A stretch of 64,000 bases of DNA. Source: Stenotrophobium rhamnosiphilum. Its GTDB lineage: Bacteria; Pseudomonadota; Gammaproteobacteria; Nevskiales; Nevskiaceae. The notes under the pieces are model-generated. The model saw only the letters and a list, made by a program, of their open reading frames with translations. It ran no database searches and was not told the origin of the DNA. This document shows positions 3,416 through 45,653 of the stretch, in pieces; within the stretch, counting starts at the first letter, position 1; every line of letters begins with the position of its first letter. Position numbers and translations under genes: made by a program. The DNA lies in the NCBI RefSeq assembly GCF_003052265.1, contig NZ_QANS01000003.1, positions 186,001 through 250,000 of the forward strand, given 5' to 3'.

Positions 3416-4615
3416 TTAGTTCAAACGATAGATCGAGCCCTGACCGCTACCCAGACTGGTGCCGTACAGCGCACCGTTGCTGGCTTTGACCAGTGCGCCA
3501 TAAGGCGTTGCGCTATCGGTTGGGTTAGCGCCGAAGGTGTGAACCGTCGACAGCGAACCGCTCGGTGAAACTTTAAACGCGGTGCCGAGGTTGTTCGCGC
3601 CGCCACCTGAAGTGGTGCCGTAGAAACCGTCGCCAACTTTCACCAAGCTTGCGCGTGGGTTGCTACCGTCTGCTGCGCCAGTGAACGAATACAGCGTGGT
3701 GAAGTTGCCAGCAGGCGTGATCTTGAACAGCGTGCCGAAGTTCTTAGCGCCGCCGTGTGAAGTCGCACCATACAGATTGCCGTCGCCGCCCTGAACCAGA
3801 CCGGCATAAGGCAGCGCGCCATCAACATTCTTGTCAGCTGCAAGCTCAGTGAAGGAATAGATAACGCTGAATGCACCAGCAGGCGTGATCTTGAACACGG
3901 TGCCTTTGCCATTAGCGCCGCCCAATGGCGTGGTGCCGTAGAAGTTGTCGTCGTTCGCTTGCGTCAGACCAGCATAAGGACCGGCTGCATCGGTTTCATT
4001 TACGCCGAAGGAATACAGCGTGGTGACGATGCCGCTAGTCGTGATCTTGTAGATCGTGCCGCCACCATTGGCGCCGCCCGACTGCGTGGTGCCGTACAAG
4101 CTACCGTCTTTGCCTTCTACCAGGTTTGCACTCGGCTCTGCACCATCGGTGCCCGCGCCGAAAGCGTGGATCGTGGTCAGCACGCCTGCTGGCGTGATCT
4201 GGAATACGGTGCCTTTTCCGTTTGCGCCATTTTCAGAATTGGTGCCGTAGAAATTGCCGTCGCGAGCTTGCACCAGCGATGCATAAGGCGCGCCGCCATC
4301 GGTTTCTTTGCTGCCGAAAGAGTAGAGCGTCGTTGGCTTGCCGCCTGGAGCAACCTTGTAAACCGTGCCTGCGTTATTCGCGCCGCCGGAGAAAGTGGTG
4401 CCATAGAGATTGCCATCCTTGCCTTGGACCAAGCCGGCGTAGGGGAAGCTGCCATCGCTATTTGCAGGGTTCAAGGTGTACTGCGTCGCGGCTCCATCTG
4501 GCGAGCTGCTTCTGCTGCACGCTGCAAAGTTTGAAGTGAGCGCGACAACCGCTGCACCCAGCAGCAGTCGTGAGTAAGGAAATGCTGCGCGCCCGTTGTG
4601 GTTCTGGGTAATCAT
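3416..4615 (-). CDS. GloVer-repeat lipoprotein (TIGR03803-type tandem repeats)
   Basis: The start at 4615 is set by AAGGGA about nine bases upstream. The product of about 399 residues begins with a signal peptide ending in FAAC, a plausible though atypical lipobox. The rest is about seven tandem repeats of roughly 50 residues built on DG-x-x-PYA-x-LV-x-x-x-DGN-(L/F)YGTT, then GGAN-x-x-GT-(V/L)-(F/Y)-K-(I/V) and (T/S)-(T/V)-(L/I)-YSF. This is the GloVer tandem repeat found in secreted or surface proteins, usually modelled as a beta-propeller-like fold; its function is unknown. It is the last gene of the long minus-strand metal-linked block, 73 bases after the adaptor gene. Confidence 0.82.
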   Translation of the reverse strand: MITQNHNGRAAFPYSRLLLGAAVVALTSNFAACSRSSSPDGAATQYTLNPANSDGSFPYAGLVQGKDGNLYGTTFSGGANNAGTVYKVAPGGKPTTLYSFGSKETDGGAPYASLVQARDGNFYGTNSENGANGKGTVFQITPAGVLTTIHAFGAGTDGAEPSANLVEGKDGSLYGTTQSGGANGGGTIYKITTSGIVTTLYSFGVNETDAAGPYAGLTQANDDNFYGTTPLGGANGKGTVFKITPAGAFSVIYSFTELAADKNVDGALPYAGLVQGGDGNLYGATSHGGAKNFGTLFKITPAGNFTTLYSFTGAADGSNPRASLVKVGDGFYGTTSGGGANNLGTAFKVSPSGSLSTVHTFGANPTDSATPYGALVKASNGALYGTSLGSGQGSIYRLN

Positions 4616-4688
4616 CGTGTTAATCCCTTTTACTGGTATGCCGTGAACAATTTTTTTGATCTGGGGTCCGCTTGTTCGCACGCGGGCC

Positions 4689-5831
4689 TCAGTGGTACTG
4701 CGAAAGTAAGGCGCCGCCTGCAACAACTAGGCGATCACCCGTTTTAAATTTGTTGCGTGCTGCTTCTGCTGATGCGGGCAACTTCGCTGCATCGCAGGTT
4801 GCAATCTGTCGCTGTGCAAAACGCTCAGCTTCAACATGCAACCAAACACTGGCGACACTGGCCTGACTGATGACGCAGGCTTTAGCGAGTTGGTTTGCGG
4901 CGGCATCTGCTGTGACTTCAAGTTCAACATTCACCGGCATGCCGGGAAGTAGATTCGTATCGTTGGCTGCGACATCGAACAGCAATTTCCACCCCGGTTG
5001 TCCGACCAGCGCTTCCTGTCCACGCAAACGCAGCGGAATCTGTCCTTGTCCTTCACTGACTAACTTGGCCGATTGCAGCTTCGCTAACAGGCGCGGATCA
5101 AAGGTGTAAGCGACAACGCGTAGTTGCGTTGGATTCGCGACTTCAAATACAGACTGACCTGCAACCACCATCTCGCCACTGCGCTGCTTGTTTCTAATCA
5201 GCACGCCAGAAACCGCAGCGCGCAAGGGCAGTCGGTCATGCAAACTCGCCACCATAAAATCTCTTTGCTGCTTTGCTGATTCCAATTCGGCAACCGCTTG
5301 CTCGTAATACACATTGCCGGTGCTATCGCCATCGCCTGCAGCATTCTGTAATCGCAGGCGCTCGACATTGATCTCGGCAATCGTCAAACGTTGTTCGAAC
5401 TCAGCACTCTTGGTGCTACGCGCAGCGGCATCACGCAGACTGATCTGCGGTTCCAGATACGCCAACACTTGTCCCGCTTTGACGACTGCGCCAGGCAATG
5501 GCCAGCCTTCTTCTGTCGCTTCCAAAACACCGGCTTGTGGTGCGGATGTCACTGAGCGTGCTTCAGGACGTGTAGCAATCTCACCCTGCAATTTGATGGA
5601 TGTGCTGGTGTTGTTAGCGACGAACGCTTCGGTTCGAATTCCCAACAAACGCTGCACGGCTTTGGAGATATACAAATCACCATTAGCTAAACGCTGTGGC
5701 TTATCCGCAGCAGTCGTTGCTGATTGCGTCGTCGCGACAGCTTCTTCATGCACTTCGCCTTCGTGCGCGCTGGTCTGAGCACTCCACAAAGTTGCGCCAC
5801 AGCACAGTAGAAATATTTGCGCGCGTGTCAT
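4689..5831 (-). CDS. RND efflux periplasmic adaptor (HlyD/CusB type), 380 aa
   Basis: The first 22 residues are a signal peptide ending SA, and the mature protein begins with a His/Glu-rich stretch (HEGEVHEE) that could bind metal. The two halves of a barrel-sandwich (lipoyl-like) domain are visible near residues 95-130 and 205-235, with a short helical hairpin between them, followed by beta-barrel segments. Such adaptors join an inner-membrane RND pump to an outer-membrane channel. The start overlaps the stop of the second adaptor gene by four bases (ATGA), so the two are translated together. The matching pump is most likely the CusA-like protein at 11480-14584. Confidence 0.85.
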   Translation of the reverse strand: MTRAQIFLLCCGATLWSAQTSAHEGEVHEEAVATTQSATTAADKPQRLANGDLYISKAVQRLLGIRTEAFVANNTSTSIKLQGEIATRPEARSVTSAPQAGVLEATEEGWPLPGAVVKAGQVLAYLEPQISLRDAAARSTKSAEFEQRLTIAEINVERLRLQNAAGDGDSTGNVYYEQAVAELESAKQQRDFMVASLHDRLPLRAAVSGVLIRNKQRSGEMVVAGQSVFEVANPTQLRVVAYTFDPRLLAKLQSAKLVSEGQGQIPLRLRGQEALVGQPGWKLLFDVAANDTNLLPGMPVNVELEVTADAAANQLAKACVISQASVASVWLHVEAERFAQRQIATCDAAKLPASAEAARNKFKTGDRLVVAGGALLSQYH

Positions 5832-6676
5832 CGGCCGACTCCAGCCGCGACTTGCACCGGTTCGCCCGGCATCAGCTGAGATGCTGACTCGCCAATCGCA
5901 AAGAACGCGCGGTTCAATCGCAATTCTGGATCGTAGGTTTCGCTGATGAATTTCAGCGCGATCTGTTGATTGTCGGATGTCAGCGCTTGCTTCAACTGCG
6001 AGCTGTCGATTGTGCGGTCGGAATAGTCCACCGTCACCGCCAATCCGCCCTGCATATTCACTTCAAAAATTTCTTGTCCTGCAACAACGACTTCTCCTGC
6101 TCGCGCAAGGCTATGCACAACAACACCAGCACGCGGCGCGATGATGGAGATTTCACCGTGTAGTGCGCGCTTCAACTGCGCTTCGCGTACCTGCGAACTT
6201 TTGTGATCGGCAAGCAGTTTGAGTGTTGGCGTCGGCAGCTTGATATCGAAAGGCTGCGTGCCATCCAACTTGTAACGTTCAACTTGCAAGCGACTGAGCA
6301 AAGCATCGCGATGCGCGCCCGCATAATCGACACTCAGATCGCGCCGCTCGGTCTGCGGAAATGTTGGACGCAAGCGCGCCAAGATTTGTCCCGCAGCAAT
6401 CTTTTGTCCCGGCAATGCAAAACCACCGGGCGGCGCTTCAAGCACGCCATCCTGCCCAGCAACAATGCGTAAATCTCTTCGTGCATCGACAACCACCGTG
6501 CCAGGCAGCGTGACGCTGCGTGGCGCGGAAACTACGGAAACTACTGGCGTCTGCTGCACCGTCGCCACCGCAACGCCCTGCGACTCGTGAGCCTGTACAG
6601 GCCACAAGTAGCTAAGCCCGATCACGCCGCTGATAGCGGCGATCGTGATCGGATTTTTGGCGAGCGACAGAGACAT
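5828..6676 (-). CDS. Second, short RND adaptor-like protein, 282 aa
   Basis: The ATG at 6676, seven bases after the ankyrin gene stop, gives a protein with an N-terminal hydrophobic segment ending in QAHE, then barrel-sandwich halves around residues 80-110 (VLEAPPGGFALPG) and 175-205 (APRAGVVVHSLARAGE). It ends soon after the beta-barrel (LMPGEPVQVA) and lacks the membrane-proximal domain of full adaptors. A longer in-frame reading upstream exists, but it would overlap the ankyrin gene and is rich in Arg. Two different adaptors in tandem suggest a mixed adaptor ring, or that one is specialised. No outer-membrane factor gene is near. Confidence 0.78.
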   Translation of the reverse strand: MSLSLAKNPITIAAISGVIGLSYLWPVQAHESQGVAVATVQQTPVVSVVSAPRSVTLPGTVVVDARRDLRIVAGQDGVLEAPPGGFALPGQKIAAGQILARLRPTFPQTERRDLSVDYAGAHRDALLSRLQVERYKLDGTQPFDIKLPTPTLKLLADHKSSQVREAQLKRALHGEISIIAPRAGVVVHSLARAGEVVVAGQEIFEVNMQGGLAVTVDYSDRTIDSSQLKQALTSDNQQIALKFISETYDPELRLNRAFFAIGESASQLMPGEPVQVAAGVGR

Positions 6677-6683
6677 GGAAGGC

Positions 6684-7355
6684 TCAGTGCACCGAAGTCT
6701 GGTTTTGAGTCTTGTTTGGCGTCGGTGCGACTGATGGATCCAGCAGCGTAACGATACGACCCTGACCACGAAGCTTTGCAATACGCAGTGGTGAGTAACC
6801 AGCCGTCGACTCGATGCTCTTGTCTGCACCGTTGCTCAACAGAAACTTAACCAGCTCTTCGTGACCGGCAGCGCTCGCAAGAAACAGTGCGGTAACACCA
6901 CGATCATTGCGACCATTGATATCCGCGCCGCTCTTCAGCAGTTCCGTCAGCAGTTCATCGCTAGCGCCAAAGTAAGCGCCATAAATGATTGGCGTCCAAC
7001 CCGAGCCATCGGCCAGATTAGGATTCGCTTTGTGGCTGAGCAGAAGCTTTACACCAGCCAAAGAGTTTTGGCTGACTGCAGCGATCAACGCGGTTTGACC
7101 CAAGGAATCAATCTGATCAACGTTCGCACCGGCAGCGATGTTTTTCTCGACTTCGTCCAACTCGCCACTGCGGGCGTGATTAACAAAGAAGGCCGCGCGA
7201 TCTTCTGGCGTCAAACCACTGATCGTGATCGTTGCAGGCGTCGTCGCTTCAGCCGTTGGCTTGATTGCGCTCTGTGCGCAACCTGCTAGCGCGAGCACCG
7301 AGAAACTCAGTGCAACAGAACGCAGACGCAGCTTGGATTGAACAGATGCTTTCAT
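6684..7355 (-). CDS. Ankyrin-repeat lipoprotein
   Basis: This 223-residue protein has a clear lipoprotein signal peptide with lipobox LAGC, so Cys26 should be lipidated and the protein anchored on the periplasmic side. Residues about 55-205 contain four ankyrin repeats with the usual G-x-T-(A/P)-L-x-x-A and LL-x-x-(G/K)-A-(D/N)-x-(N/D) signatures. Ankyrin repeats bind other proteins. The start is two bases beyond the stop of the preceding isomerase gene, so the two are co-transcribed and probably coupled. The partner is unknown; it may be one of the other secreted proteins of this block. Confidence 0.85.
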   Translation of the reverse strand: MKASVQSKLRLRSVALSFSVLALAGCAQSAIKPTAEATTPATITISGLTPEDRAAFFVNHARSGELDEVEKNIAAGANVDQIDSLGQTALIAAVSQNSLAGVKLLLSHKANPNLADGSGWTPIIYGAYFGASDELLTELLKSGADINGRNDRGVTALFLASAAGHEELVKFLLSNGADKSIESTAGYSPLRIAKLRGQGRIVTLLDPSVAPTPNKTQNQTSVH

Positions 7356-7357
7356 GA

Positions 7358-8260
7358 TTATTTCTTCCCGTTGCCTTGTGCGCTCGACAAGCTGGCGCCG
7401 CTGATTTTGGCGTTAGCCGTCAGACGTGCAGTCAAGGTTTCGATTTGGATCTGGCCGGTCTTCTGGCGCAGTGCCTGACGAACGTTGTCGGGGAGTGCAT
7501 CGTAAGGCTCAGCATTCGTCACCTGACGTGCGCTGTCTTCAAGCTTGATGATGTGCCAACCGAAACGCGTGCGTACTGGCGCTTTGGTGTATTCGCCTTT
7601 CTTCAGCGCTGGCAGTGCATCGGTGAAATTGTGGTCAACGAAAATGTCTGGACGGAACCAGCCCAGATCGCCGCCATTGCTCTGGCCGCCTGGATCTTGC
7701 GTGTACTGCTTTGCAGCTTCAGCGAAGTCCGTGCCTGAATTCAGCTTGTTGAGAATCTCGCGGGCTTCACCCGAAGTCGACACCAGAATCTGGCGCAGTT
7801 TGTATTCAACGATCTTGCCGTTTGCACGATTGAATTCGTATGCCGACTTCAACGTTGCATCGGTGATCGGATTTTTTTCGAAATAGCTTTCGAGATAAGC
7901 GCGCGAAAGAATTTCGCGGGTTTGGAAAGCCAGCTGATCGGCGACAACAGGACGCTTGTCGAGACCGGCCTTACGCGCTTCTTGCGCGAGGACTTCTTCA
8001 GTGATGAGTTCGGCACGCGCAGCAGCGAGAGCATCCGCGCTGTTCAGAGGGCGACCGTTTTTGTCTTTGGCAAAGCCTGAGCTCATCAGTCGAACATGGT
8101 TCTCACTGATCGACTGGCCATTGACGATAATTTCTGGGGCGAGACCCGCGGCGTACGGCGTTGCGTTGGCAGCAACTGCGGCATAAGCGGCGAACAGACT
8201 CGTAAAGCTGATGGCATACAAGGAAAGCTTGAACGCCGATTGATTCTTGAACTGCGACAT
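7358..8260 (-). CDS. Periplasmic peptidyl-prolyl isomerase, PpiC/parvulin type
   Basis: The ATG at 8260 follows AGGAG at a good distance and begins a protein of about 300 residues with a signal peptide (cleavage near AVAA). An N-terminal SurA-like helical region (about 45-150) is followed by a parvulin domain (about 160-255) with the motifs RQILV, GGDLGWF and RFGWHIIKL. Parvulins catalyse cis-trans isomerisation of proline bonds and act as chaperones for secreted proteins. Its likely clients are the large secreted protein encoded immediately upstream or the efflux components downstream. Confidence 0.88.
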   Translation of the reverse strand: MSQFKNQSAFKLSLYAISFTSLFAAYAAVAANATPYAAGLAPEIIVNGQSISENHVRLMSSGFAKDKNGRPLNSADALAAARAELITEEVLAQEARKAGLDKRPVVADQLAFQTREILSRAYLESYFEKNPITDATLKSAYEFNRANGKIVEYKLRQILVSTSGEAREILNKLNSGTDFAEAAKQYTQDPGGQSNGGDLGWFRPDIFVDHNFTDALPALKKGEYTKAPVRTRFGWHIIKLEDSARQVTNAEPYDALPDNVRQALRQKTGQIQIETLTARLTANAKISGASLSSAQGNGKK

Positions 8261-8308
8261 CTGAATACTCCTAAAACATATTGAAACTAATGATGCGTAG
8301 AGAACTTG

Positions 8309-8340
8309 GAGACGCTGCCTACCCATGCAGGCAGCGTCTC
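8309..8340 (-). other. 12-bp inverted repeat between two genes of the block
   Basis: GAGACGCTGCCT at 8309-8320 pairs perfectly with AGGCAGCGTCTC at 8329-8340 around an 8-base loop. It lies between the stop of the large secreted protein gene (8355) and the isomerase start (8260). No T run follows on the minus strand, so it may be an RNA-stabilising or processing hairpin that lowers downstream expression and not a full terminator. Confidence 0.6.
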
Positions 8341-8354
8341 TAGTCCTTTAATGC

Positions 8355-11045
8355 TTAGTGAAGAACGACAGGTTTAGCTGGGTAGTAACCAGGACCGAAC
8401 AGTGCTGCGCCGTCGCGTTCAAAAATCGCCGCGTGCGGTTTAGCTGCACCCTTCTGTCCACGTGAACCCGGCCACAGCCAGCCATCACGTGCCGCGCTGT
8501 CAAAGTCGAGGCAAGGCGTGCCGAGGATTTCGTCGGTGAATGACGTATCCAATACCGAGGCACCCGTTCTGCGATCAACTTTGGCAAGGCAGATCGTGCG
8601 ATCGCCGTCCGAACCCGTACCTGGCAACGGCACGTGATTCAGTTCCACGAAGTACTGGATGAAGGCGTAGCGTTCGACACCCGATGCTGCTGGCTGTCCA
8701 ACCACTGCGTTGCGTGGCAAGCCCAAACCGTTGGCCGTCTTGATCGGTGTCAGATCGAGATAACCACCCGTGCCGGAAGGCGTCGACTGGTAACCGATGC
8801 GATCAACGATCGTGAAGTGAGGACCACCATGCGTGTATAGATTCTGCGGTGAGTTGAGGTTGCCGCTACCAGGTGCACCACCGGTGCCTGAAGGTTCGCC
8901 ACCAACCTGCGCATTGTTCAGAATCACGTTGCTCAGACTGCCGCCTTCAACTTCTTGCAGAACCTGTGCGAGACGGATGTAACCAACGCCGAGCTGGCTC
9001 GAGTTAGACGATTCAGTCGTCGCTGCGCCGATGCCGGTTGGGCCCGTTTCGAACTGTCCGATAGAACCACGAACACGTGGGCAGTCATCCGCTTCGTTGT
9101 TATGACGGAGCACGTTGAACTTGCCACTGATGCCACTCGACAGATCAGCGCGCGTCGCTTTGATACCGAGCGTGTTCTTGCTGACACGTGAGCTGTCTGG
9201 CGGCGGGAAGTCGCAACGGATAGCCGTTTCTGGCGTATTTGCACGACCCTTAGCAAGCAGCGGACGAATGTCGACCGTCAACACGCGGCGGCTGTGTTCA
9301 CGTGGATAGTCACGATCGAACTCAACTGCGCCAACTGGATCAACCGATGCCGGACTTTCGATACCTGCGATTGGCAGAATCAACCAACGGTCGTCATCTG
9401 TAATCGAGAAGTATGAAACGCCGGTGCAAGGACCCACGTCGTATACAGCGCGCCAGTACGGACCCTTGCCGCCAAACACATTGGTCTGGTTGCCTGGGAT
9501 GGTGATGTCAGGGCTGTAGTACAGAACGCCACCGCACATCGCCGCAGTGAATGCGCCATCGTGCGGAATGAAGTTGCTCTTATCTTCGGTGCAATCTGCA
9601 ACGCCGATGTTGGAGCCACTGTTTGCGCCAACGCCAGCAGGCGTTACTGCACGGTCATAGCTTGGATCGCCAAGATTGACCCAACCTTTCTGGTTGCTGC
9701 AGTGATGCGACTGGTGAGGCAGACCGAATGCCATCAGGCCTTCGTTCTCTTCATGGAAAACAACCAGCTCTTCACGTGGACCATCTGGCACCGCGCTCAC
9801 CGAACGGATGTACGGATTGCTTGGGAAGATGTTGGACTTGGACAGCGAGTCCTGCGTCTTGCCGTGCGTGTAGCTTTCGCTGGTCTTGTAGACGCGTACG
9901 GATGAACCGAAGCTTGATCCGCAAATGCCGAGAGGACCTGGATCCAGCGAAGGTGCGCCAGGAATCAGTGACTCCTGATTGCAAAGTCCACGCAGTGCGC
10001 CGTTGATTGCAGCGGCACCGATACTGGCAGCCACAGCGTAATCGGAGTGCACCAGATATTTGCCGTCATACGTCAGGCCCATACCGTGTGGCAGTGCTTC
10101 GATACCGGCATCTTTGTTGCCGAAATAGAACACGCCTTGGTTGTACGCACGCTGTGCGCGCTTATCCGGATAGCTGGTGTAGCCCGTCGGATTGCGTGGC
10201 TGATTTGCCTGTACGCAAGCCGAGTATTCGGTGATGCCGACGTGGCCGAGCAGCGGGCTGTCATCAACATAATCGAGACCACCCAAGCAACCAATCAGGC
10301 CGCCTTGCTCAACGCTCTGCAGAAGCGGGATGACGCCCGGCACTGAAGGCTGGCAAATGCCGCCGAGCAGTGTAGGTGCCGTACGGCCCGGATCAATTTC
10401 CGTCACCGTGCCGCCTGGTCCGTAAACGTAGTTGCTCATGTAGGTGTACAGAATCTTGTGATTCGGACCCTGCGATGGCATGACGATGAAATCGTCTGTC
10501 AGCGATGAACGCGATGGCTGCGTACCGCAAACAGCAACATCCGCTTTACCAATATTGCGGACGCTGGTGATATCAAAACGGAATACGTTCTTGCTGATAA
10601 CGCCGCCAGCGAACGTGTATTTGTGACCTGCCGTGAGTCCATCGCCGCCACCGGAGATGTATGACGTGTAGCTCAGCATGTGGTGCGGATCGTTGTGCGA
10701 GTCCGAACCGAGAATGCCGAGAATATTGCCGGCGACGTTAGACGCCAGAATGTTCGTCAACTCAGCAGTCCAGATCACGTTGCCAAACGTTCTTGAGTTT
10801 GGCTCTGCATCGATGACTGCCAAAAAGTCTTGGCTTGAAGTGGGATTGCAGACTGGCGTGCTGCAGCCGTCGCCCGTCCACACCAACAGCGTCGAGCCGT
10901 TGGGGATGACTTTTCCCGTGTATTTGTTAATGGCTTCTGGTGCACCGGCGCTCACAACACTAGCGCTGGCCAACAGGCCGATCCCTAAACAACCGGCGAA
11001 CCAGCGCCGTAAAGATCGCGTTCTCGTTTGAGATGGCGAATTCAT
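8355..11045 (-). CDS. Large secreted protein with selenium-binding protein/methanethiol oxidase-like features
   Basis: The ATG at 11045 has AGGAG upstream and starts an 896-residue protein with a signal peptide (about residues 1-33, containing SLRRWF). The mature N-terminus has DFLAVIDAEP (73-82) and HNDPHHML (117-124), which resemble the DFLATVD and DELHH motifs of the SBP56/methanethiol oxidase family; later come HGMGLTYDGKYLVHSDY and IPHDGAF. Known family members are about 450-470 residues, so this protein is nearly twice the usual size. It has many Cys, Gly and His. Bacterial methanethiol oxidase is a periplasmic copper enzyme whose gene lies near copper-chaperone and MauG-like genes, which fits this neighbourhood. 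The family assignment is from motif resemblance and is tentative; the oxidase activity is not shown. Confidence 0.5.
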   Translation of the reverse strand: MNSPSQTRTRSLRRWFAGCLGIGLLASASVVSAGAPEAINKYTGKVIPNGSTLLVWTGDGCSTPVCNPTSSQDFLAVIDAEPNSRTFGNVIWTAELTNILASNVAGNILGILGSDSHNDPHHMLSYTSYISGGGDGLTAGHKYTFAGGVISKNVFRFDITSVRNIGKADVAVCGTQPSRSSLTDDFIVMPSQGPNHKILYTYMSNYVYGPGGTVTEIDPGRTAPTLLGGICQPSVPGVIPLLQSVEQGGLIGCLGGLDYVDDSPLLGHVGITEYSACVQANQPRNPTGYTSYPDKRAQRAYNQGVFYFGNKDAGIEALPHGMGLTYDGKYLVHSDYAVAASIGAAAINGALRGLCNQESLIPGAPSLDPGPLGICGSSFGSSVRVYKTSESYTHGKTQDSLSKSNIFPSNPYIRSVSAVPDGPREELVVFHEENEGLMAFGLPHQSHHCSNQKGWVNLGDPSYDRAVTPAGVGANSGSNIGVADCTEDKSNFIPHDGAFTAAMCGGVLYYSPDITIPGNQTNVFGGKGPYWRAVYDVGPCTGVSYFSITDDDRWLILPIAGIESPASVDPVGAVEFDRDYPREHSRRVLTVDIRPLLAKGRANTPETAIRCDFPPPDSSRVSKNTLGIKATRADLSSGISGKFNVLRHNNEADDCPRVRGSIGQFETGPTGIGAATTESSNSSQLGVGYIRLAQVLQEVEGGSLSNVILNNAQVGGEPSGTGGAPGSGNLNSPQNLYTHGGPHFTIVDRIGYQSTPSGTGGYLDLTPIKTANGLGLPRNAVVGQPAASGVERYAFIQYFVELNHVPLPGTGSDGDRTICLAKVDRRTGASVLDTSFTDEILGTPCLDFDSAARDGWLWPGSRGQKGAAKPHAAIFERDGAALFGPGYYPAKPVVLH

Positions 11046-11479
11046 AACTACTCCTGAGCATTCCCTTGAGTCGTTGTGAGACTTGATGACTGCGCTACAG
11101 AACCGTTTCTGTACGCCGTCACGTCTCATCCGAATATAGACGGGTGACCCTACATTCCGTCTGACTCGATAATACAAAGAATACTCAGCTATAAAAGCCT
11201 GATTTCTAGAAGTTATGTTTAATAGGATAGATCGTTATGGACTATAGGCCAGATTGAACTTAGCCGATTTTGCTTGATCTTATCCTCGTATTTTATTGTT
11301 TATTCTTGTTATTTTTATTATACGGTTATAAGCATATTCCAAAAGCATAAGCTCGCCTGATAGATAACGTGAAATATGTAGGATATTTAGTACGTTTCAA
11401 TGTCTATAACCATCAAAATACATAAATTGATGCCTATACCCATCAAGTCCCGCTTGGGATGCCCGAAGCCGGGCAGACA
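11046..11479. promoter_or_regulatory. AT-rich intergenic region, probable promoter region
   Basis: This 434-base stretch separates the RND pump gene from the large secreted protein gene, both on the minus strand. I see no credible gene in it. The part from about 11160 to 11450 is strikingly AT-rich compared with its surroundings. A short hairpin (TGCCCG at 11460-11465 with CGGGCA at 11470-11475) lies just past the pump gene stop, without a T run. A separate promoter for the secreted-protein operon is likely here, but I cannot define -35 and -10 boxes with confidence. Confidence 0.5.
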
Positions 11480-14400
11480 TTAATAGAGCGCGGCGCCCTG
11501 TTTCTGCTGTTGCAAACGCTGCAAAGGCGCAGCGCCGTATCGATGGAACAGCAGGGGCGTCAGGAAGCTGTCGAACAGCGTGCTGCTGACCAGTCCGCCA
11601 AAAATGACCAGCGCCACCGGGTGCAGAATTTCCTTGCCCGGCGCGTCTGCCGAGAACAACAGCGGCAGCAGCGCGAGTGCGGCGATCAGCGCTGTCATTA
11701 ATACAGGCGCCAAGCGCTCCGACGAGCCGCGAAGAATCAGCGCCGTGCCAAAGCGCTCATTCTCGGCCAGTACCAAATTCAGATAGTGGCTGACCTTGAG
11801 AATGCCATTGCGTGCCGCGATGCCCGCGAGCGTGACAAAGCCAATCAAGCTGGCGATAGAGATCGGCGTGTTCGTTATCGCCAGCACAAAAATTCCGCCG
11901 ACCATGGCGAGCGGAACATTGGCGAGCACAATCAAAGCCAAACGCAGCGAACTGTAACGGCTGTAAAGCACGGCGAGCATCAGCAATAAGGAAACCAGCG
12001 CGAGCTGCAGAATACGAACCGTCGCTTGTTGAGCGGCGAGGGATTCGCCTTCGAGCTTCAACTCATAACCGGCAGGCAGCGGAATTTTCTTCAGCGCATT
12101 CGGCACGCTCGCTGCGCCGTGATCAAATTGTCCGTCAGCTGAATAGGCAGAGACGACAATGCGACGACGTTGTCCTTCTCGCAGAATCTGATTGGGGCCT
12201 TCTGCAATCGCGATGTCCGCCAACCAGTTCAAAGGCACTGCGCCCGCTGGTGTATCAAACAAGGTTTGGCCAATAACATTCGGTGTGATTTTTTCCTGCG
12301 GCAGACGCAGCACCAAATCGAAACGCCGCTCCTGCTCAATCACACGCGACAGCGTTCGTCCGATCGTCAGCTCCGTCAGCGCATCTTGCACACGCGGAAC
12401 AGATGCGCCGTACTGTGCAGCGCGACGTGGATCAACGCGAACTTGCAGTTGCGGTACTGCTGCCTGCTTCTCAACCTGCACATCACCCAAGCCTGGAATT
12501 TCTGCGAGGCGCTTGCGCACGTTCTCGGCGATATCGCGAAGCACGGCGAGATCATCACCGTAAATCTTTACGGCCAGCGGCGCTTTCACGCCTGACAGCA
12601 AGTGATCGAGTCGATGAGAAATCGGCTGACCAAAAATCAAAGTGCCCGGCAGCACAGAAAGCTTTGCACGCAGATCAGCCACAACTTCTGCGCGCTTCCG
12701 ACCATCGGCACGCAGTTTCATTTCCAACTCGGAGTAATAAATGCCTTCGGCATGCTCGTCGAATTCTGCGCGTCCGGTTCGGCGGCCAACACTGAGTACT
12801 TCAGGCACTTTTAATGACAAGGTCTCTGCGAGTGCGCCAACGCGGTTTGATTCTTCAAGCGAGATGCCGGGCTGTAGCAGCACGTTGACCGTTAGCGTGC
12901 GCTCATTAAATGAGGGCAGGAAACTACGCGGGAGTTGTGTTGCCACGACAACAGCAATCACGGCGAGCACGCCAACCACAATAAACGTTGGGCGTGGCAC
13001 AGCCAGCGCGCGCTGCAGTAGCTCGGTGTAACGCACCTTCAATCGCTTGAGCCAAGCCGGTTCTTGCGGCAGCTGCGTTGTTACGGGCAGCGAGAATCGG
13101 ATCAGCACCGGAATCAAGGTGATCGATACCACCAAACTCGCCGCAATCGCCGCCATGTATGCAGAAGCCAATGGAATGAACAGACGACCTTCCACGCCAT
13201 CCAAAGCAAACAGCGGCACGAAGACCAAAACAATCAGCAAGCTTGCGTAAAGAATTCCGGAACGGACTTCCAACGTCGCGTCAGCAATCACACGCCAGAT
13301 CGGCGAGGGCTCAATTAACTCTGCATTGCGACGCAAACGTCTGACGACGTTCTCAATGCCCACAACGGCATCGTCAACCAATTCGCCAACAGCGATGGCG
13401 AGACCGCCCAACGTCATCGTGTTGATGGTGAAACCAAAACCATGCAGCACAAGAATCGCAGCGAGCACAGAAAGTGGAATCGCAAGCAGCGCCACCAAAG
13501 TAATGCGCGCGCTGGCGATGAACAAGAAGAGAATCAGCGCAACAACAAGCGCACCTTCCAACAAGGCCTCGCTGACATTCGCAACCGATTCGTCGATGAA
13601 ATCGGCTTGCCTGAATAATGTTGTGCGATGCGTTCCTTTCGGCAGATGAACATCGGACTCCGCCAAGGCATGTTCGATTGCATGCGTGAGTTGCAGCGTA
13701 TCGGTGCCCGGCTGTTTCTGGATTGCAAGAATCACTGCGGGCTGACCATTCATGCCCGCATCGCCGCGCTTCAGCTTTGCACCAACCGCGACATCGGCAA
13801 CCTGACCCAATCGCAGCGCACCCGTGCCACGCCATGCAACGGCAGTCTGCGCCAGATCTTCCAAGTTGAGCGGACGACCCAAACTGCGAATCGCGAATTC
13901 CGCGCCATTCGCATCAGCAAAGCTGGCGCCAGTGTTATTGCCAAAGCCACTCGTGGCTTCAGTAATTTGCGCGAGCGTCACGCCGTGCAGTTTCAACTTT
14001 TCAAGATCAGGCCGTATCTCGTACTGCTTGACCTCGCCACCAATCACAACAACCTGCGCCACACCCGGCAAGCTCAACAGCTTGGGCCGCAAACTCCAAT
14101 CCGCATGTTCACGCACTTGCTGCGGATTGCTCGTTGCTGGCACGGCCTGCAATGCGACCAGATAAATCTCACCCATCAAGGAAGTGAGTGGCCCGATACG
14201 CGGATCAGCAATCGCGGCGAGTTGAGAACGAATCGAGTCGACACGCTCTGCAACCAGTTGGCGATTACGAAACGGATCGGTGCCCCATTCAAACTCCGCA
14301 TACACCACCGACAAACCCGGGCTGGAGAGCGAACGAATTCTGCTGACACCCTGCAATCCGCTGAGCGCTGTTTCGAGTGGAAACGTTACTTGCGATTCGA

Positions 14401-14584
14401 CATCTTCTGGCGCGAGGCCCGCTGTCTCTGCCTGCACCGTCACCATCGGCCGCGTTAAATCCGGCAGCACATCCACTGGCAACTGCTGTGTCTGGAATAT
14501 TCCGACGGCTAAAAGAATCAGCGCCAATGCGACAACGATGACGGGATTACGCAGACTGACTTCGACGAGGCGTGAGTAAATCAT
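11480..14584 (-). CDS. Heavy-metal efflux RND pump, CusA/CzcA type
   Basis: The 1034-residue length, the N-terminal span followed by LPVDVLPDLTRP, and the TM4 motif VGELVDDAVVGIENV, with the acidic pair of the proton relay, mark a heavy-metal RND (HME) pump. It would expel metal ions from the periplasm together with an adaptor and an outer-membrane channel. The gene overlaps the upstream mbnH gene by four bases (ATGA), so the pump is translated right after MbnH. No adaptor is adjacent; two adaptor genes lie about 5 kb downstream in the same direction. Cu(I)/Ag(I) or divalent specificity cannot be fixed by eye; the MbnPH partners favour copper. Confidence 0.87.
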   Translation of the reverse strand: MIYSRLVEVSLRNPVIVVALALILLAVGIFQTQQLPVDVLPDLTRPMVTVQAETAGLAPEDVESQVTFPLETALSGLQGVSRIRSLSSPGLSVVYAEFEWGTDPFRNRQLVAERVDSIRSQLAAIADPRIGPLTSLMGEIYLVALQAVPATSNPQQVREHADWSLRPKLLSLPGVAQVVVIGGEVKQYEIRPDLEKLKLHGVTLAQITEATSGFGNNTGASFADANGAEFAIRSLGRPLNLEDLAQTAVAWRGTGALRLGQVADVAVGAKLKRGDAGMNGQPAVILAIQKQPGTDTLQLTHAIEHALAESDVHLPKGTHRTTLFRQADFIDESVANVSEALLEGALVVALILFLFIASARITLVALLAIPLSVLAAILVLHGFGFTINTMTLGGLAIAVGELVDDAVVGIENVVRRLRRNAELIEPSPIWRVIADATLEVRSGILYASLLIVLVFVPLFALDGVEGRLFIPLASAYMAAIAASLVVSITLIPVLIRFSLPVTTQLPQEPAWLKRLKVRYTELLQRALAVPRPTFIVVGVLAVIAVVVATQLPRSFLPSFNERTLTVNVLLQPGISLEESNRVGALAETLSLKVPEVLSVGRRTGRAEFDEHAEGIYYSELEMKLRADGRKRAEVVADLRAKLSVLPGTLIFGQPISHRLDHLLSGVKAPLAVKIYGDDLAVLRDIAENVRKRLAEIPGLGDVQVEKQAAVPQLQVRVDPRRAAQYGASVPRVQDALTELTIGRTLSRVIEQERRFDLVLRLPQEKITPNVIGQTLFDTPAGAVPLNWLADIAIAEGPNQILREGQRRRIVVSAYSADGQFDHGAASVPNALKKIPLPAGYELKLEGESLAAQQATVRILQLALVSLLLMLAVLYSRYSSLRLALIVLANVPLAMVGGIFVLAITNTPISIASLIGFVTLAGIAARNGILKVSHYLNLVLAENERFGTALILRGSSERLAPVLMTALIAALALLPLLFSADAPGKEILHPVALVIFGGLVSSTLFDSFLTPLLFHRYGAAPLQRLQQQKQGAALY

Positions 14585-15996
14585 TGCAGTCTCTCGCCGA
14601 GCAACGTGCCTTGTAGTTGCTCATTTAAACCTGAGCTTTGCACGCTGATCTTGATTGCTTGCGATTGTTTAAAGTCGATGCGCTCTGCGGGAATACGATA
14701 AACACCTTCACCATCTTCCGCCGCACGCAGCAATTGATTGCCAACGCGCACGCTCAGATTGAGTCCTTTCAACGGCGTGTTGCTGCCAAAGTCATCGGCG
14801 TAAATCACCAGATCATCAATCTCATGCACCAGCACAAGCTCCACGTTCTCTGATTGCAAGATCAAGCGCGAACGACCTGCACGTGCAGGAGCAACAATGT
14901 CGCTAGAACGCTTTGCAGCAAACACCGAATCAAGCAACGATGGTTTCGCCGTCTTTGCCAGATCAATCTCCGCAAAGCGCACGTCATTGATGAACTGTTG
15001 ATCGGTCAGCGTATTCAAGAAACTCAACAACTCGCGGCGCTGCTGTTGATTCAGTGGAATGCCTTTGGCCAAAAGCGGATCAAGTGCAGGTGACGCGGCG
15101 ACGCCGTGATCGTAATGATCCAGCACTTGTTCCAACTTGGTAAAACGACCGTCATGCATATAAGGCGACGTCAGCGCGATATTGCGCAGCGACGGCACGC
15201 GGAACAATCCATGATCTTCTGACTTGCCTGTTACACCTTTACGCCCTTCATCTTCTGGCTGCGCATCAAGTCCGTTGTTGCGATAGCTATAGTCAGAGAA
15301 CAAGGGCTCGCGATGACATGCGGCGCAGTTCTGGCGAAACAGCTTGAGGCCCGCAGTTTCATCAGTTGAAAACTTTTCTTCACCGGCAACGTAACCGTCA
15401 TAACGCGAATGACTGGAAACCAAGCTGCCGGTGAATTGCGCCAATGCACGCAGCGTGCGTTGCGAATCAATGCCCGGTGTACCAAAGGCCTGCTCAAATA
15501 ATGGCGCGTAGCTTTGATCCGCTTTTAATTTATCAATAATGTTCGACAGCGTTTCGCCCATCTCCAACGGATTGCTGATGGGCAATATCGGCTGCGTCTC
15601 AAGATGGGTTGCCGCGCCATCCCACATCAGCTGCGGTTGCCAGGCGAGGTTGAACAAACCCGGCGCATTACGTTTACCGTTTATGCCGCCGATGCCATGA
15701 CTGACCGGATGATCGAGTTGTGCAAACGCTGCAAATTGCTGATGGCAACTTCCGCAAGACACGCTGCCATCTCGCGATAGCTGTGCATCGTAGAAAAGCT
15801 TTCGACCGAGAGCGAAGCCTTCCGCGGTGATCGGATTATTTTTGAAATCGTATTGCGGTGCTGGCCAGTTCTTAGGGACTTCGAATTTCGGCGCATCAAC
15901 AACCTTGTGCTCGCTGCGATCACGCAAGATGACAGCGCCCAACAAGCCAACAGCAATGGCCAGTCCCGCCCATAGTAATCGTCGTGACCGTTTCAT
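14581..15996 (-). CDS. mbnH: MbnH-like di-haem cytochrome c peroxidase/MauG family enzyme with extra C-terminal domain
   Basis: After an N-terminal membrane anchor or signal (residues 1-25) the protein shows two c-type haem sites, CGSCH (81-85) and CAACH (224-228), in a MauG/cytochrome c peroxidase layout with SPYMHDGRF at about 277-285. Enzymes of the MbnH branch oxidise a tryptophan of MbnP to kynurenine to make a copper site, and an MbnP gene lies directly upstream here, overlapping by one base (TGATG). Residues about 375-465 form an unusual C-terminal beta-rich domain (HEIDDLVIYADDF, GVYRIP, QGTLL) not expected in the family; it resembles an N-terminal domain of some metal-RND adaptors. 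The gene overlaps the pump gene by four bases. Confidence 0.85.
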   Translation of the reverse strand: MKRSRRLLWAGLAIAVGLLGAVILRDRSEHKVVDAPKFEVPKNWPAPQYDFKNNPITAEGFALGRKLFYDAQLSRDGSVSCGSCHQQFAAFAQLDHPVSHGIGGINGKRNAPGLFNLAWQPQLMWDGAATHLETQPILPISNPLEMGETLSNIIDKLKADQSYAPLFEQAFGTPGIDSQRTLRALAQFTGSLVSSHSRYDGYVAGEEKFSTDETAGLKLFRQNCAACHREPLFSDYSYRNNGLDAQPEDEGRKGVTGKSEDHGLFRVPSLRNIALTSPYMHDGRFTKLEQVLDHYDHGVAASPALDPLLAKGIPLNQQQRRELLSFLNTLTDQQFINDVRFAEIDLAKTAKPSLLDSVFAAKRSSDIVAPARAGRSRLILQSENVELVLVHEIDDLVIYADDFGSNTPLKGLNLSVRVGNQLLRAAEDGEGVYRIPAERIDFKQSQAIKISVQSSGLNEQLQGTLLGERLQ

Positions 15997-16802
15997 CAGG
16001 GCGCTGCGGCATTGTCCGCAACAGCAACATTGTGCACATGCTCAACACTGAAGAGCCCAGCAACATTGTCCGCAATCGGCATGCCTGCTTTCGGTGACAT
16101 CGCTTCCGAAAGCTCAGCGATGCGAATGCGATTCGCACCTTCAAAGACCTGCGCGATATCCGCACTAAGATGAATTTGCGCCCGCGTTTTCGCATTCACC
16201 TTGATCGATTCCTTACCCAAAGGCAGGAACACAAGACGCGCGCCGGATGTCGGTCCATTACCGCCAAGGTGATAAGTGAGTTCGTGCTTCTTGCTGGACG
16301 ACTGCGGCGAGTGACCTTCTAACTTGAAGAAGATGTAGCCCGTACTCCAAGTCCAGAACATGCCGCGAGCTGGATCCAGCTCACCGCTTTGCACGCCTGC
16401 GCCATTGCGAACAGGATCAATGCCAATCAGAAACTCAATGCCCGAATACTCGCCGGGCGGCACGAGGCCAATCGGAAAAGTGAGCGATTCCTTTAATGCC
16501 GCATCGACCAAGAAATAGCCTTGGCTGCTCTCCGCACTCTGCGGATTAACAAACCACGTGCCATCCGCGCGCCTCAACCGGAAATTGCTGAGGTAGTAAC
16601 GAACGTGATCAAGCGAGTACTCATCGCCAGCAGAAGTTTTGTAGAGCGTGCCGTCCAGACGCAGCGGCTGCGTCGCAACGTGGTGCGTGATTTCAATGCC
16701 GACCGGAAACGCATTCGTCTCCGCACTCGGTGAGCAGCCACCTAAGAGAGCAGCCAAAATCGCGGCAGCACATGCCTGCCTGAATGATGTTCCGCTCCCC
16801 AT
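15996..16802 (-). CDS. mbnP: MbnP family copper-binding lipoprotein
   Basis: The ATG at 16802 begins a 268-residue protein with a lipobox LLGGC (Cys23), so it is lipid-anchored in the periplasm. Family features are the VRYYLSNFRL segment, GEYSGIEFLIGIDP, and the aromatic core GMFWTWSTGYIFFKLEG with Trp150 and Trp152. In characterised MbnP a tryptophan is converted to kynurenine by MbnH, which helps form the copper site; the gene pair here has that arrangement. The last residues add a His-containing tail (EHVHNV). An earlier ATG at 16841 is possible but gives a poorer signal peptide. Confidence 0.85.
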   Translation of the reverse strand: MGSGTSFRQACAAAILAALLGGCSPSAETNAFPVGIEITHHVATQPLRLDGTLYKTSAGDEYSLDHVRYYLSNFRLRRADGTWFVNPQSAESSQGYFLVDAALKESLTFPIGLVPPGEYSGIEFLIGIDPVRNGAGVQSGELDPARGMFWTWSTGYIFFKLEGHSPQSSSKKHELTYHLGGNGPTSGARLVFLPLGKESIKVNAKTRAQIHLSADIAQVFEGANRIRIAELSEAMSPKAGMPIADNVAGLFSVEHVHNVAVADNAAAP

Positions 16803-16976
16803 GTTGCAGCGTTCCCGAATCCTGATTGCGATAGCCAACATTGGCTCGCAACAGCGAGCTCAACGGTTCGGGGCAATCATATATTCCAGTTTGGTTTAAT
16901 AACCGGGCAAATCTAGACCGTGTCGGAATATGAATATTCGGTTTGGCGTTCTGAACCGAGTTAACCAATATCAAAT

Positions 16977-19900
16977 TTAGGCTGCTGCCCGATTATTGAT
17001 ATCGGAGAGTGTTGCGATGATCTTATCGGCTTCCGCGTCGTTGAAAACGCCGTCAATGCCTTGATGGTGTGCACTTGTGAACGGAGGCTCATACAGTTGT
17101 CCTGGGTCCATCACTCCGCTCTGCGTCAACTTCTCAATGATCATTTCAACAAAACGTATCTGATGGCTGTTGTAGCGAGCTGAGTCTAAGAACTGCCCGA
17201 AAGCATCCTTGGCTGCATTGCGATCCAACCCGACGAGGGAGCGGATAAAAACAGTCAGTGGCCGATCAGCGCCAAAGATCTGCTCGAATCGTTCACGGCT
17301 TTCTACAGCCTCAGATTCAAATACAAATCGCTCCAACTCAGCCAAGTCAGTCGGCGTCAGCGCTTTGTTGTGTTTGAGTTTGGCAATAACAATGTGGTTT
17401 TCGTTATCGCGGATATAGCGTTCTACTTTGCGACGGTACTGAGCGAGATTGATGCCAGTGCTGAAATTGGTCAGCGTGACTTCAGATGACGTACCAATCT
17501 CGTCGGTAAACGCGCTATACACCGGCTTGATCATATTGCGATCAATAAACTGAATCAGGCCGCGCATTTTTTTGCGTAATGCTTCAATCATCGGCAACGA
17601 AATGTCGCGCCAGTAATCTTCGGTTTGCACATCTTGAATCAAAGCAAGTTCAGCCTTCACGGCTGGAATACTGTCTTTCTTTTCGAGATCGCTCGCCAGA
17701 TCAATAATTCTGTCTCGATACGTCACAAAGCCGGGTGTTGAATTGATTAAGGCTAACTGCAGATTAAGGCACGTGAGATCAAACAGCTTGGCGGTTATGT
17801 GCTCTGACTCTTGTTCAGTTGGCAAACCTGCAACATGATCGCGAAGATTGATGAACGACATCTCGTCCAACTCTACCCAACTCTCGGCCTGCTTAAAGCG
17901 CGTTACATGCTCACGCTCAGTACGCACAATAAAGTTGTCGAGATTCATTGCTGCCACTTCAGTGTGAAGTAGTCCGGCTAAATTATTACGCAGTGTCGCT
18001 AGTGGATCATAAGACCCGCCTGCCTCTTGCTGACTACCTGTATTAGTTGATTCATGCTTAGGTAACGCAGCCAATAATTCCAAGCGCCGTTTAAACAAAC
18101 GCTTCTGCAAGGGCTCGGTAGCAGACGCAACAGCGCCTTTCGGGTTCTCGTTGAAATACTCAAAGTTGCCGCAGAAATCAAAGATAAAAAATTCAGATTT
18201 ATCTGCGCCCGGTCCAAACAAATCCGGACACAGGCGCGTGCCTCGGCCAATCATCTGCAGAAACTTGACCTTGCTGCGCACCGCTTTGAAGAACACAAGG
18301 TTCACAACCTCAGGCACGTCGATACCGGTATCGAGCATATCCACCGAAATCGCAATATGCGGGTTCTTGGCCTTGTTGCTGAAGTCATCAATCAAAGACT
18401 GTGCATAACTCACCGCGTGTGTAATCACGCGTGCAAACTCGCCTTTTAGGTGTGGGTAGTGATGATCAAAACGGCTGGCAATAAACTTTGCGTGCTCTTG
18501 ATTCACTGCAAAGATAATGGTCTTGCCTAGCTTGTCGCCGCCATCCACTTTCAGCCCGTGCTGCATTAAATGCTGCAGCATCAGATCAACCGTGCTTTCA
18601 TTGAAGAGCTGCTTATTCACCTCAGAGGCGAGCACTGCGTCTGGCGGCTGATCGTCTTCATGGTCGCCCCAATCAAGTGAATCCCAGTGCTCTCGCTCTT
18701 GCTGGCTCAGCTCGTTGTACTTAATGCCCTCACGCACAAACCTAATCGGCACAGAATGCGACTTAGGCGGCACCAGATAACCATCGGCAACTGCTTCTTC
18801 AAGACCATATGCATCGGTCGGCACACCAGTTTCAAGGCCGAACAGGTGATAGGTATCGTGATGCACCTCATCGCGCGGCGTTGCGGTAAGGCCAACGAGA
18901 TAGCTATCAAAGTATTTAAAGATTGCGCCGTACTTTTGGTACACGCTGCGGTGCGCTTCATCAATCACAATCAGATCAAAGTGGCCCACGCCATATTTGC
19001 GGCGGTCGCCTTCCATCTCTTCAATCAAACCCATCATCGTTGGATAGGTCGAAAGGTAAACGCGCCCTTGGCCATTTTTATCGGTCACCAAGTTCACCGG
19101 GCTGCTATCTGGCAAATGTGCCTTAAAGGCATTTGTCGCCTGCTTTACCAACGCCACGCGGTCAGCCAGAAACAGCACACGCTTAACCCAGTTGGCGCGC
19201 ATCAGCAGTTCAATTAAGGCAATGCTCATGCGCGTCTTGCCGGTGCCGGTGGCCATGGTCAGCAGGCCTGCACGTTTACCTTTGCTCAGGGTCTCCCCCA
19301 TCGACCGAATGGCACGCTGTTGGTAGCTGCGCTCAACAATGGTTTTGCTAATCGCCAAACCTTTAAGGTCGGTTTGCAGGCTGCGACGTTTAATCGCCAG
19401 CTCCAACTCTTCACGGCTGTAAAAACCTTGCACTTCACGCGGTGGCGCGCGTTGGTCATCCCACAACCAAGTGTGGTTTCCGTTGGAGTAGAAGATCAGC
19501 GGGCGCTGACCCTTCATTTGTTCCAAGCAATCGGCATAGAGCTTGGCTTGTTGACGGCCCACATCGGCATCTTTGAGCGTGCGCTTGGCCTCAACTACCG
19601 CCAGCGGTTTGCCGTCAGCACCCCACAGCACGTAATCAACGAAGCCTTCACTCTTTTCATTCGGCATACCAACAACGGGCACTTCAATGCCTGCTGTTTT
19701 GCCTAACTCCCAACCAGCTTCGCGCAGCAGCACATCAATAAAGTAACGGCGCGTATCCGCTTCGTTGTAGTCGTGATGGTCAGGTACCTTAATGCTCGCA
19801 GCCTTGGCTTGTGCCAGCTCTGCGCGCACAGCGGCGAGATCTGCATTGACCTTGGCCAGCAGCGCTTCACGCTCGGCGAGCGTGGCGGCCTGTTCGGCAA

Positions 19901-20459: not shown

Positions 20460-20462
20460 GGA

Positions 20463-23032: not shown

Positions 23033-23124
23033 GCGTACAGCCCCAGTTTTAAATAGTTATTTTTGATTTCTTTTGGATTGTGCAGCAAAACGATCATTTT
23101 CAGGCAATTCAAAAACATTAATTA

Positions 23125-23232
23125 TTGATTTTCGTAAAAGGCTTGGTAACAGTCCGTTTTTGATTTGATGCCGTGGCGCGGTTGTATCGAACCTGAGCGA
23201 AACATATATATGGCTTTGAATGGCACACGCCA
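23125..23232 (-). pseudogene. Remnant of an NAD(P)-binding oxidoreductase gene
   Basis: Translation of this stretch gives a 36-residue segment containing PFKAIYMFRSGSIQPRHGIK, which matches PFKAAYMFRPGMIQPLHGIK of the intact oxidoreductase at 24559-25218. About 23 of 36 residues are identical by my count. The fragment has no start, and the sequence around it does not continue the match. It is in the same orientation as the intact gene, with fic between them. The identity is too low for a recent duplication, so it is probably the decayed end of a paralogue left when the restriction-Fic block arrived. Confidence 0.65.
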
Positions 23233-23336
23233 CGCTGGGCTTCGCAAGAAACAAATGGAGCCAGACTCATCCATGTCCTTAAACCGTAAGCCTCTGCGTT
23301 TGGCATGGGGCAATCCCTGAGCATTTCTGGCTAAAT

Positions 23337-23438: not shown

Positions 23439-23450
23439 AGATGTTCATAA

Positions 23451-39255: not shown

Positions 39256-41697
<2,442 letters not shown>

Positions 41698-42774: not shown

Positions 42775-42787
42775 GCAATAGACCCGA

Positions 42788-45496: not shown

Positions 45497-45573
45497 GTAT
45501 CGTTTAATAGTTATTGTCGGGCGCTCTATAACCCTAGTGCACCGGGGAGCCAGTCTAGCGTCTTGAACCAGAC

Positions 45574-45582: not shown

Positions 45583-45653
45583 GTTCTCTTGAAGGTCGGA
45601 AGGTAACACGCTAGAATCCGCGCCCTTTTTAGATTTACTGTGATTGGTGTTTC

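Follow-up and report, generated by a model that had tools for sequence, protein, structure and literature searches.

What is the task of a copper-protein pair of the MbnP/MbnH type whose genes share a block with those for a metal pump and for a large secreted protein? The question is raised by a stretch of 64,000 nucleotides (the window) from the Nevskiaceae genome of Stenotrophobium rhamnosiphilum, in which positions 3416-16841 hold nine genes, all on the minus strand. An initial annotation had counted ten genes in a row, although its own list held nine, the number found here; every gene that it named lies on the minus strand and in the place given. Eight of the nine are our subject: mbnP, mbnH, the gene of an RND pump, that of a large secreted protein called p940, the genes of a PpiC-type isomerase and an ankyrin-repeat lipoprotein (Ank), and two RND adaptor genes. 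In one family of soil and water bacteria the copper proteins, the pump and p940, a distant relation of copper-dependent thiol oxidases, stay together, and we therefore read the block as an outfit that builds and supplies a new copper enzyme acting on sulfur compounds. That p940 is a periplasmic copper oxidase, likely of sulfur compounds, with a copper and modification module of its own is an explanation to which we give an even chance of being right.

Conservation of the block

The order and strand mbnP-mbnH-RND-p940-PpiC-Ank-adaptor-adaptor are kept in all 12 genomes in which the block is fully covered, those of the window and 11 relatives. In six more, whose contigs end within the block, the order agrees up to the contig end, and two short contigs (L045 and L050) carry just the mbnP-mbnH end. 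The initial annotation had regarded the genes as one system and suggested comparing gene order in other genomes; that comparison comes out in its favour, as does joint occurrence. Among 85 Nevskiales genomes, p940 occurs in 27 and MbnP (PF20243) in 36. The 27 genomes with a higher-scoring MbnP (at least 128 bits, E 8.6e-37) are the same 27 that carry p940, and the remaining nine reach no more than 119 bits and are without p940, a split that was chosen after the result had been seen and across a small gap in score. The split is backed by the neighbours: in seven of the nine genomes, and at a second copy in G033, MbnH is about 30-33% identical to that of the window and p940 is absent.

In 21 of the 27 genomes a single contig carries both p940 and MbnP, at a distance of 4.8-5.6 kb; in the remaining six the two are on separate contigs. 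No other part of the block is as well conserved as p940 (65-87% identity to its relatives); in-frame stops were seen in the p940 match of G817 (TAG) and in the fragmented copy of G017 (TGA). The ninth gene, for a GloVer-repeat lipoprotein, has a counterpart in only one of the 11 fully covered relatives, the sister species, and has been dropped from the core, in which the initial annotation had included it. Hence, the eight-gene block is supported as one system, with GloVer outside it. A draw of 398 genomes from the phylum yielded p940 in the window's genome only.

The Nevskiales counts are not independent, all 27 genomes being members of a single family, and shared ancestry might by itself hold together neighbours that have no common function. 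We find this scarcely credible. In four genera (g3, g6, g9 and g12) the presence of the block is patchy, yet p940 and MbnP are present or missing jointly. Reading frames overlap, the mbnP stop sharing one base with the mbnH start (15996) and the mbnH stop four with the RND start (14581-14584), just as the initial annotation had reported for this trio. Moreover, MbnH is fused with an adaptor-type domain, apparently on two occasions.

Relation of p940 to SBP56 and MtoX

From its likeliest ATG, p940 is encoded at 8355-11045 on the minus strand; a longer open reading frame of 940 codons opens with TTG at 11177, and the gap upstream runs from 11480 down to 11045. Ordinary family scans place the protein poorly. 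No Pfam or NCBIfam family was found at E 0.001, SBP56 was the sole Pfam match up to E 10 (E 0.27), and the SBP56 model, run against the window's genome up to E 10, picked out p940 only (E 0.1). The methanethiol oxidase model NF052453 had no p940 match at E 0.001 and none in the window's genome at E 1e-5. A p940 profile searched against the PDB had the SBP56 protein 2ECE as its top chain at E 0.29; adding relatives from a second gammaproteobacterial family, found in two genomes (G139 and G263) of a class draw of 369, brought this to E 0.031, and neither value is significant alone. With phmmer, neither P0001 nor the G139 relative matched a PDB entry.

Homology is better seen by direct comparison. 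BLASTP of p940 against an MtoX that passes the NCBI methanethiol oxidase model (767 versus 650 bits) gave E 8e-8, the value of a single comparison, over a stretch that includes the His-His pair. When 23 p940-type sequences (without loci L087, L103 and L090 and fragments L104-L109) were aligned with 19 SBP56 sequences by HHalign, the profiles matched at 96.1% (E 3.6e-9; local, 93 columns), and at 82.7% (E 1.1e-6) under other alignment settings. The MtoX-type subset gave 95.0% and other SBP56 90.8%; Nevskiaceae p940 alone reached 91.8% against MtoX and the two second-family relatives alone 35.6%. As controls, seven other families of the cluster stayed at or below 0.1% against p940 and 0.5% against SBP56, reversed SBP56 columns gave 0.2% and GloVer 0.0% against p940, and 100 column shuffles reached at most 6.6% (best E 0.0055); this set of shuffles, reversal, cluster families and GloVer held no unrelated propeller of known structure. 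Profile comparison therefore supports the term 'SBP56-like' used in the initial annotation, where the ordinary scans fall short of their cut-offs. A bridge between the two groups is provided by a secreted SBP56-like protein of 410 residues from the Nevskiaceae genome G022 (L150:1321-2550), itself without a Pfam family at E 0.001, which matches both MtoX (E 4e-11) and the p940 C terminus with its PH(G/A)xxF motif (E 6e-4).

The His-His motif of p940 (10680-10685) is aligned by BLASTP and by HHalign and is invariant in the seven rows of alignment A2. Together with two further residues it could form a four-His copper site (His165, His166, His364 and His915 in P0001 numbering), of which the first pair alone is securely aligned. 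H287 and H838 of alignment A2 are likewise invariant, the C-terminal one being aligned through L150 only and the middle one by reading of the motif. Literature is cited here by PMC number and for the excerpts available to us. A four-His copper site has been proposed for methanethiol oxidase (PMC5739008), and the activity of SELENBP1 is strongly suppressed when its putative copper His, the His-His pair included, are mutated (PMC10362175). p940 would presumably bind copper too, and keep the fold of its relatives past the first part of the chain. Two of the 85 Nevskiales genomes have true MtoX, in each case alongside p940; p940 therefore does not simply stand in for MtoX.

MbnP and MbnH

The first gene of the block encodes an MbnP-type lipoprotein (15996-16841, minus strand) in a frame of 281 residues. 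The initial annotation began it at 16802, and its Trp150/152 are Trp163/165, the WxW motif, of the longer frame. MbnP far exceeds the cut-off of PF20243 (165 versus 27 bits) and stays below that of NCBIfam TIGR04052 (45.8 versus 140 bits); each of W163, W165, H53, H191, H224, H268 and H270 is conserved in 14 or all 15 of the aligned sequences. MbnH (14581-15996, minus strand; 471 residues) is a CCP_MauG protein in Pfam. Its best NCBIfam family is TIGR04039 at 227 bits (cut-off 363), with the MauG model at 199, and its best PDB match is 6e1c, a 'Di-heme enzyme' that we take to be MbnH. Two CxxCH motifs (C81..H85 and C224..H228) and Tyr295 are kept in all 14 aligned sequences. Tyr295, which aligns with a Tyr of 6e1c and with a Met of bacterial peroxidase, is presumably the second axial haem ligand known from work on MauG. 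The identity that the initial annotation had given to the pair is thus upheld by WxW, the two CxxCH with the Tyr position and the Pfam cut-off for MbnP, with both proteins under the stricter cut-offs of NCBIfam.

MbnH oxidises a Trp of MbnP to kynurenine, and the same modification would be expected in the MbnP described here. Kynurenine formation has been described for the analogous CorA and MopE (PMC3912023, PMC3621798); CorA, which is copper repressed, holds Cu(I) by two His, a water and the kynurenine (PMC3912023). Conservation of MbnP/MbnH pairs reaches well past the methanobactin producers, and a survey of 2013 called them 'mysterious partners' (PMC3621798). As in methanobactin loci, CorA/CorB and MopE/SACCP, a WxW copper protein here adjoins a di-haem partner. 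Unlike those known pairs, this one sits within a pump-plus-oxidase block and its MbnH bears an adaptor-type Ig-like domain; Pfam and NCBIfam scans found no methanobactin biosynthesis gene among the nine genes.

Membership of this class, together with the copper-repressed Cu(I) site of CorA, would suit a scavenging and storage role like that of CorA or MopE, in which MbnP/MbnH and the pump gather limiting copper for general use and p940 is one client among several or a storage protein. We consider this improbable, since the best conserved part of the block is unlike an optional client and p940 relatives adjoin a pump where MbnP and MbnH are missing, as described below.

The pump and the adaptor-type domain of MbnH

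The pump (11480-14584, minus strand; 1034 residues) is of the HME type (CusA/CzcA family) and narrowly exceeds the cut-off of TIGR00914 (717 versus 701 bits). None of the nine genes is an outer-membrane factor by Pfam; such genes were also sought in 12 genomes, and among the matches listed none lies within a cluster. The closest pumps of other families are 50-54% identical in five genomes and at most 45% thereafter.

A small gene separates mbnH from the pump gene in eight of the 12 fully covered genomes; its call is truncated in G033. Its product, of 158-184 codons in the complete calls, has AHEGH after a signal peptide (AHDGH in G027) and a hydrophobic segment at the C terminus. In three genomes (that of the window, G001 and G006) the small gene is fused to the end of mbnH, and in G031 it is absent. 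The resulting C-terminal domain of MbnH (14584-14910, minus strand) is a predicted β-sandwich (AlphaFold2 predicted local distance difference test, pLDDT, 89) that reads as Ig-like; a fold search returned nothing at E 0.001 or below, the best match standing at E 4.5e-3 and the titles being mostly those of β-sandwich domains. Searched against 535 called proteins, a profile of the domain matched nothing beyond these proteins except the N-terminal portion of two adaptors, L181 (E 8e-14) and L183 (E 3e-14), which adjoin pumps 51-54% identical to that of the window. At a third adaptor locus, L182, the Ig-like part of MbnH matches the start of the adaptor region (tblastn, E 1.7e-8). The domain thus shares its ancestry with the one at the N terminus of RND adaptors.

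In the pump tree, a group with unfused Nevskia takes in G000 and G001 (support 1.0), and G006 is placed among other unfused genomes (0.95). As the fused genomes fall in separate unfused groups, two fusions are the simplest reading, and the joining of MbnH to the adaptor domain apparently happened twice; this is one tree, with some weak deeper nodes, and alternatives were not compared.

Sulfur-related neighbours

The called mbnP start shares four bases with a CysB gene in all four genomes of Solimonas (genus g8). Each of the four genomes has a second CysB elsewhere, and all exceed the NF009326 cut-off (516 versus 436 bits for G008). In six other genomes CysB is absent from the block, with one copy in each of five and two copies in G003. 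The genes downstream of the block were scanned with hidden Markov models (HMMs) in four relatives (G008, G020, G023 and G033), and a gene of the metallo-β-lactamase fold is found in three. Its two best models, glyoxalase II and a sulfur transferase/dioxygenase, are near equal and both below cut-off. Two of the three, G020 and G023, also have DUF6691 and sulfur-transport-type genes, and in G023 the sulfur-transport type barely reaches its cut-off; in G008 two genes were scanned, and they are of neither kind.

Comparable loci

SBP56 was found in 18 places, and the surroundings of eight were fetched. SCO1 and a MauG-like gene adjoin all four MtoX-type loci among them, as they do at L078, the source of the query genes; the other four SBP56 loci are without this adjoining pair. 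In published loci, mtoX-type genes are neighbours of SCO1 and of a MauG-like gene (PMC5739008). The MauG part of L078 is best matched by the MbnH family model (242 bits versus 204 for MauG), as is MbnH of the window. Hence, the mtoX-SCO1/senC-mauG locus and the present block share a secreted SBP56-type His-His protein beside a MauG/MbnH-type enzyme and a copper-handling protein. They differ in that p940 is about twice as long, under all cut-offs and without the conserved Cys of MtoX, and in that MbnP, RND pump, PpiC and ankyrin genes stand here in place of SCO1. In the four MtoX-type loci with SCO1 and MauG (L140-L143), SBP56 lacks the GWN motif that follows His-His in other SBP56.

At both second-family loci (L076 and L077), the p940 relative is followed by a CusB-related adaptor and then a CusA-type pump. 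CusB is the best model of the adaptor, which stays below the CusB cut-off and exceeds that of the general adaptor model; the pump is far above the CusA/CzcA cut-off. Long ankyrin-repeat genes lie near both relatives, and a DUF6691 gene lies within 10 kb of the one in L076.

A third parallel is the thiocyanate dehydrogenase locus of Thiohalobacter and Guyparkeria, where a CusA-type pump and two CusB-type adaptors (cusA, cusB1 and cusB2) lie near the enzyme gene (PMC6504805). As is proposed here, a copper enzyme of sulfur chemistry is found near such a pump with two related adaptors; the available part of the published description names no MbnP/MbnH (PMC6504805). This likeness is what would favour p940 acting like thiocyanate dehydrogenase, a periplasmic copper propeller. 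That account is very unlikely, because p940 has no detectable similarity to the enzyme: its profiles matched no thiocyanate dehydrogenase chain up to E 10 in a PDB copy in which the enzyme's presence is unconfirmed.

Among the open-licence papers listed for MbnP/MbnH, methanethiol oxidase, SBP56 with RND/CusA/MauG and thiocyanate dehydrogenase, no title points to a description of the gene set. The same holds for the titles listed for Nevskia and Solimonas with methanethiol oxidase, selenium-binding proteins or CysB.

Proposed function and alternatives

We propose that the block serves to produce, fold and metallate a single periplasmic enzyme, p940, a distant relative of the copper-dependent, propeller-shaped MtoX/SBP56. 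MbnH would oxidise a Trp of the WxW motif of MbnP and thereby create a copper site. MbnP, working with the pump, both adaptors and the Ig-like domain, would then control the copper supply of p940. The ankyrin lipoprotein and PpiC may help p940 to fold or stay active, and p940 would most likely oxidise a sulfur compound in the periplasm. What the data show directly are the genes with their order and shared occurrence, the distant homology between p940 and SBP56 including the His-His pair, the joining of MbnH to an adaptor-type domain and the sulfur-related neighbours that recur in relatives; the sulfur substrate, the metal and direction of the pump and the roles of PpiC and Ank are inferred.

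We advance only tentatively a more specific version, in which p940 is the first member of a new family of large copper oxidases that act on sulfur compounds in the periplasm, with MbnP/MbnH as its dedicated copper insertion module, physically tied to the RND pump. In that version the adaptor Ig-like domain carried by MbnH is the reason for assigning the pump to metallation, in which it would feed copper to MbnP and p940 or clear it from them, and not to resistance.

Several observations weigh against the copper-oxidase proposal. p940 scores 10.4 bits where the cut-off of PF05694 (SBP56) is 34, its secure homology to SBP56 spans about 80-90 columns of shallow profiles (effective number of sequences 1.8), and a structure prediction from seven sequences was poor (pLDDT 24.9). 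A Cys present in all five MtoX-type sequences (C40 of L078) is absent from p940, as judged by extending the BLASTP alignment to MtoX. It probably corresponds to Cys28 of Ruegeria MTO, which is needed in that enzyme (PMC10936201). In the window, no sulfur gene was recognised by reading beside the block. MbnP is without p940 in 9 of the 36 MbnP-bearing Nevskiales genomes, and the seven of these nine that were examined have an MbnH-type gene. Eight Bacteroidota loci have the MbnP/MbnH pair and, in the fetched flanks, neither pump nor p940 relatives. Conversely, G139 and G263 lack MbnP and MbnH in the roughly 8-10 kb fetched on each side of their p940 relatives, so MbnH is not always at hand. At the pump, Met573, Met623 and Met672 of CusA are replaced by Asn, Tyr and His (phmmer alignment), and the 15 loci fetched for the nearest pumps have no match to MbnP, the MbnH core or p940.

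Canonical methanethiol oxidase was rejected as an identity for p940, which lies below the family cut-off and lacks the conserved Cys. That Cys also limits how far the initial annotation's comparison with methanethiol oxidase can be taken: in the strict sense the name does not apply. By these tests p940 is a distant relative of SBP56/MtoX and no methanethiol oxidase. In the MbnP/MbnH pairs of the Bacteroidota (L034-L041), the same MFWTW(N/R)(S/T)GY motif was read in seven of the eight.

The three Met of CusA form its Cu(I) site; all three are kept in the second-family pumps. With this triad replaced in the block's pump and no outer-membrane factor among the nine genes, 'metal efflux' in the sense of copper export, as the initial annotation had it, is unsupported; another metal or oxidation state is possible. 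The block shares with the copper/silver pump CusCBA a TIGR00914 family pump and adaptors, and differs from it in the missing Met triad and in having no outer-membrane factor among the nine genes.

Some weight attaches to detoxification, in which the pump would rid the periplasm of a divalent metal or a metal-thiol complex, MbnP would buffer copper and p940 would destroy a toxic thiol or sulfide, with no supply of an enzyme. Such a role would be in keeping with the HME-RND family of the pump, with Asn, Tyr and His in place of the CusA Met, and with the frequency of related pumps that lack MbnP/MbnH or p940 (a pump match at E 1e-150 or below occurs in 94 of the 369 class genomes; 15 loci were examined). 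Set against this are the missing outer-membrane factor, a joint occurrence with p940 stricter than a resistance pump needs, and the overlap of mbnP in Solimonas with a second cysB and not a metal regulator. On balance, we judge detoxification rather unlikely.

The copper-oxidase proposal gives the MbnP/MbnH pair a concrete client, p940, and a partner machine, the RND pump, reached through the fused domain. As the block also occurs in cultured Solimonas strains, this naming of client and machine makes the role of the pair directly testable. If the proposal is true, one more secreted copper enzyme of sulfur chemistry would stand beside MtoX and thiocyanate dehydrogenase.

Other genes of the block and window

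The remaining genes of the block, all on the minus strand, follow p940. The PpiC-type periplasmic peptidyl-prolyl isomerase lies at 7358-8326 (PF13616, 70 bits) and the ankyrin-repeat lipoprotein at 6684-7355 (PF12796, 86 bits; lipobox LAGC read by eye). RND adaptor a (5828-6829) is above cut-off for PF16576 (30.6 bits) and PF13437 (29.1 bits), its real start probably being near 6676. Adaptor b (4689-5831; PF13437, 30.5 bits) has HEGEVHEE after its signal peptide and is homologous to adaptor a (HHalign 100%). The GloVer-repeat lipoprotein outside the core (3416-4726) matches TIGR03803 in seven stretches. Promoter-like sites in the sequence number 2 against a shuffle mean of 7.3 and terminator-like sites 19 against 17.0, no clear excess in either case. 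The closest named contig is a Nevskiaceae metagenome-assembled genome (L024), with Nevskia and Solimonas likewise near.

Directly upstream of mbnP, type I restriction-modification genes occupy 16977-24542; the nearest, on the minus strand, is HsdR, the type I restriction subunit (16977-20459, by HMM), and HsdS and HsdM were assigned by reading, as was a Fic-type gene beside them on the opposite strand. Further on, with names by reading only, 39256-49598 is a block of replication-origin type (gyrB, recF, dnaN, dnaA, yidC and mnmE), and 51066-63275 resembles a cluster of the aryl-polyene type, with ketosynthases, an AMP ligase, acyltransferases, a glycosyltransferase and an MMPL exporter.

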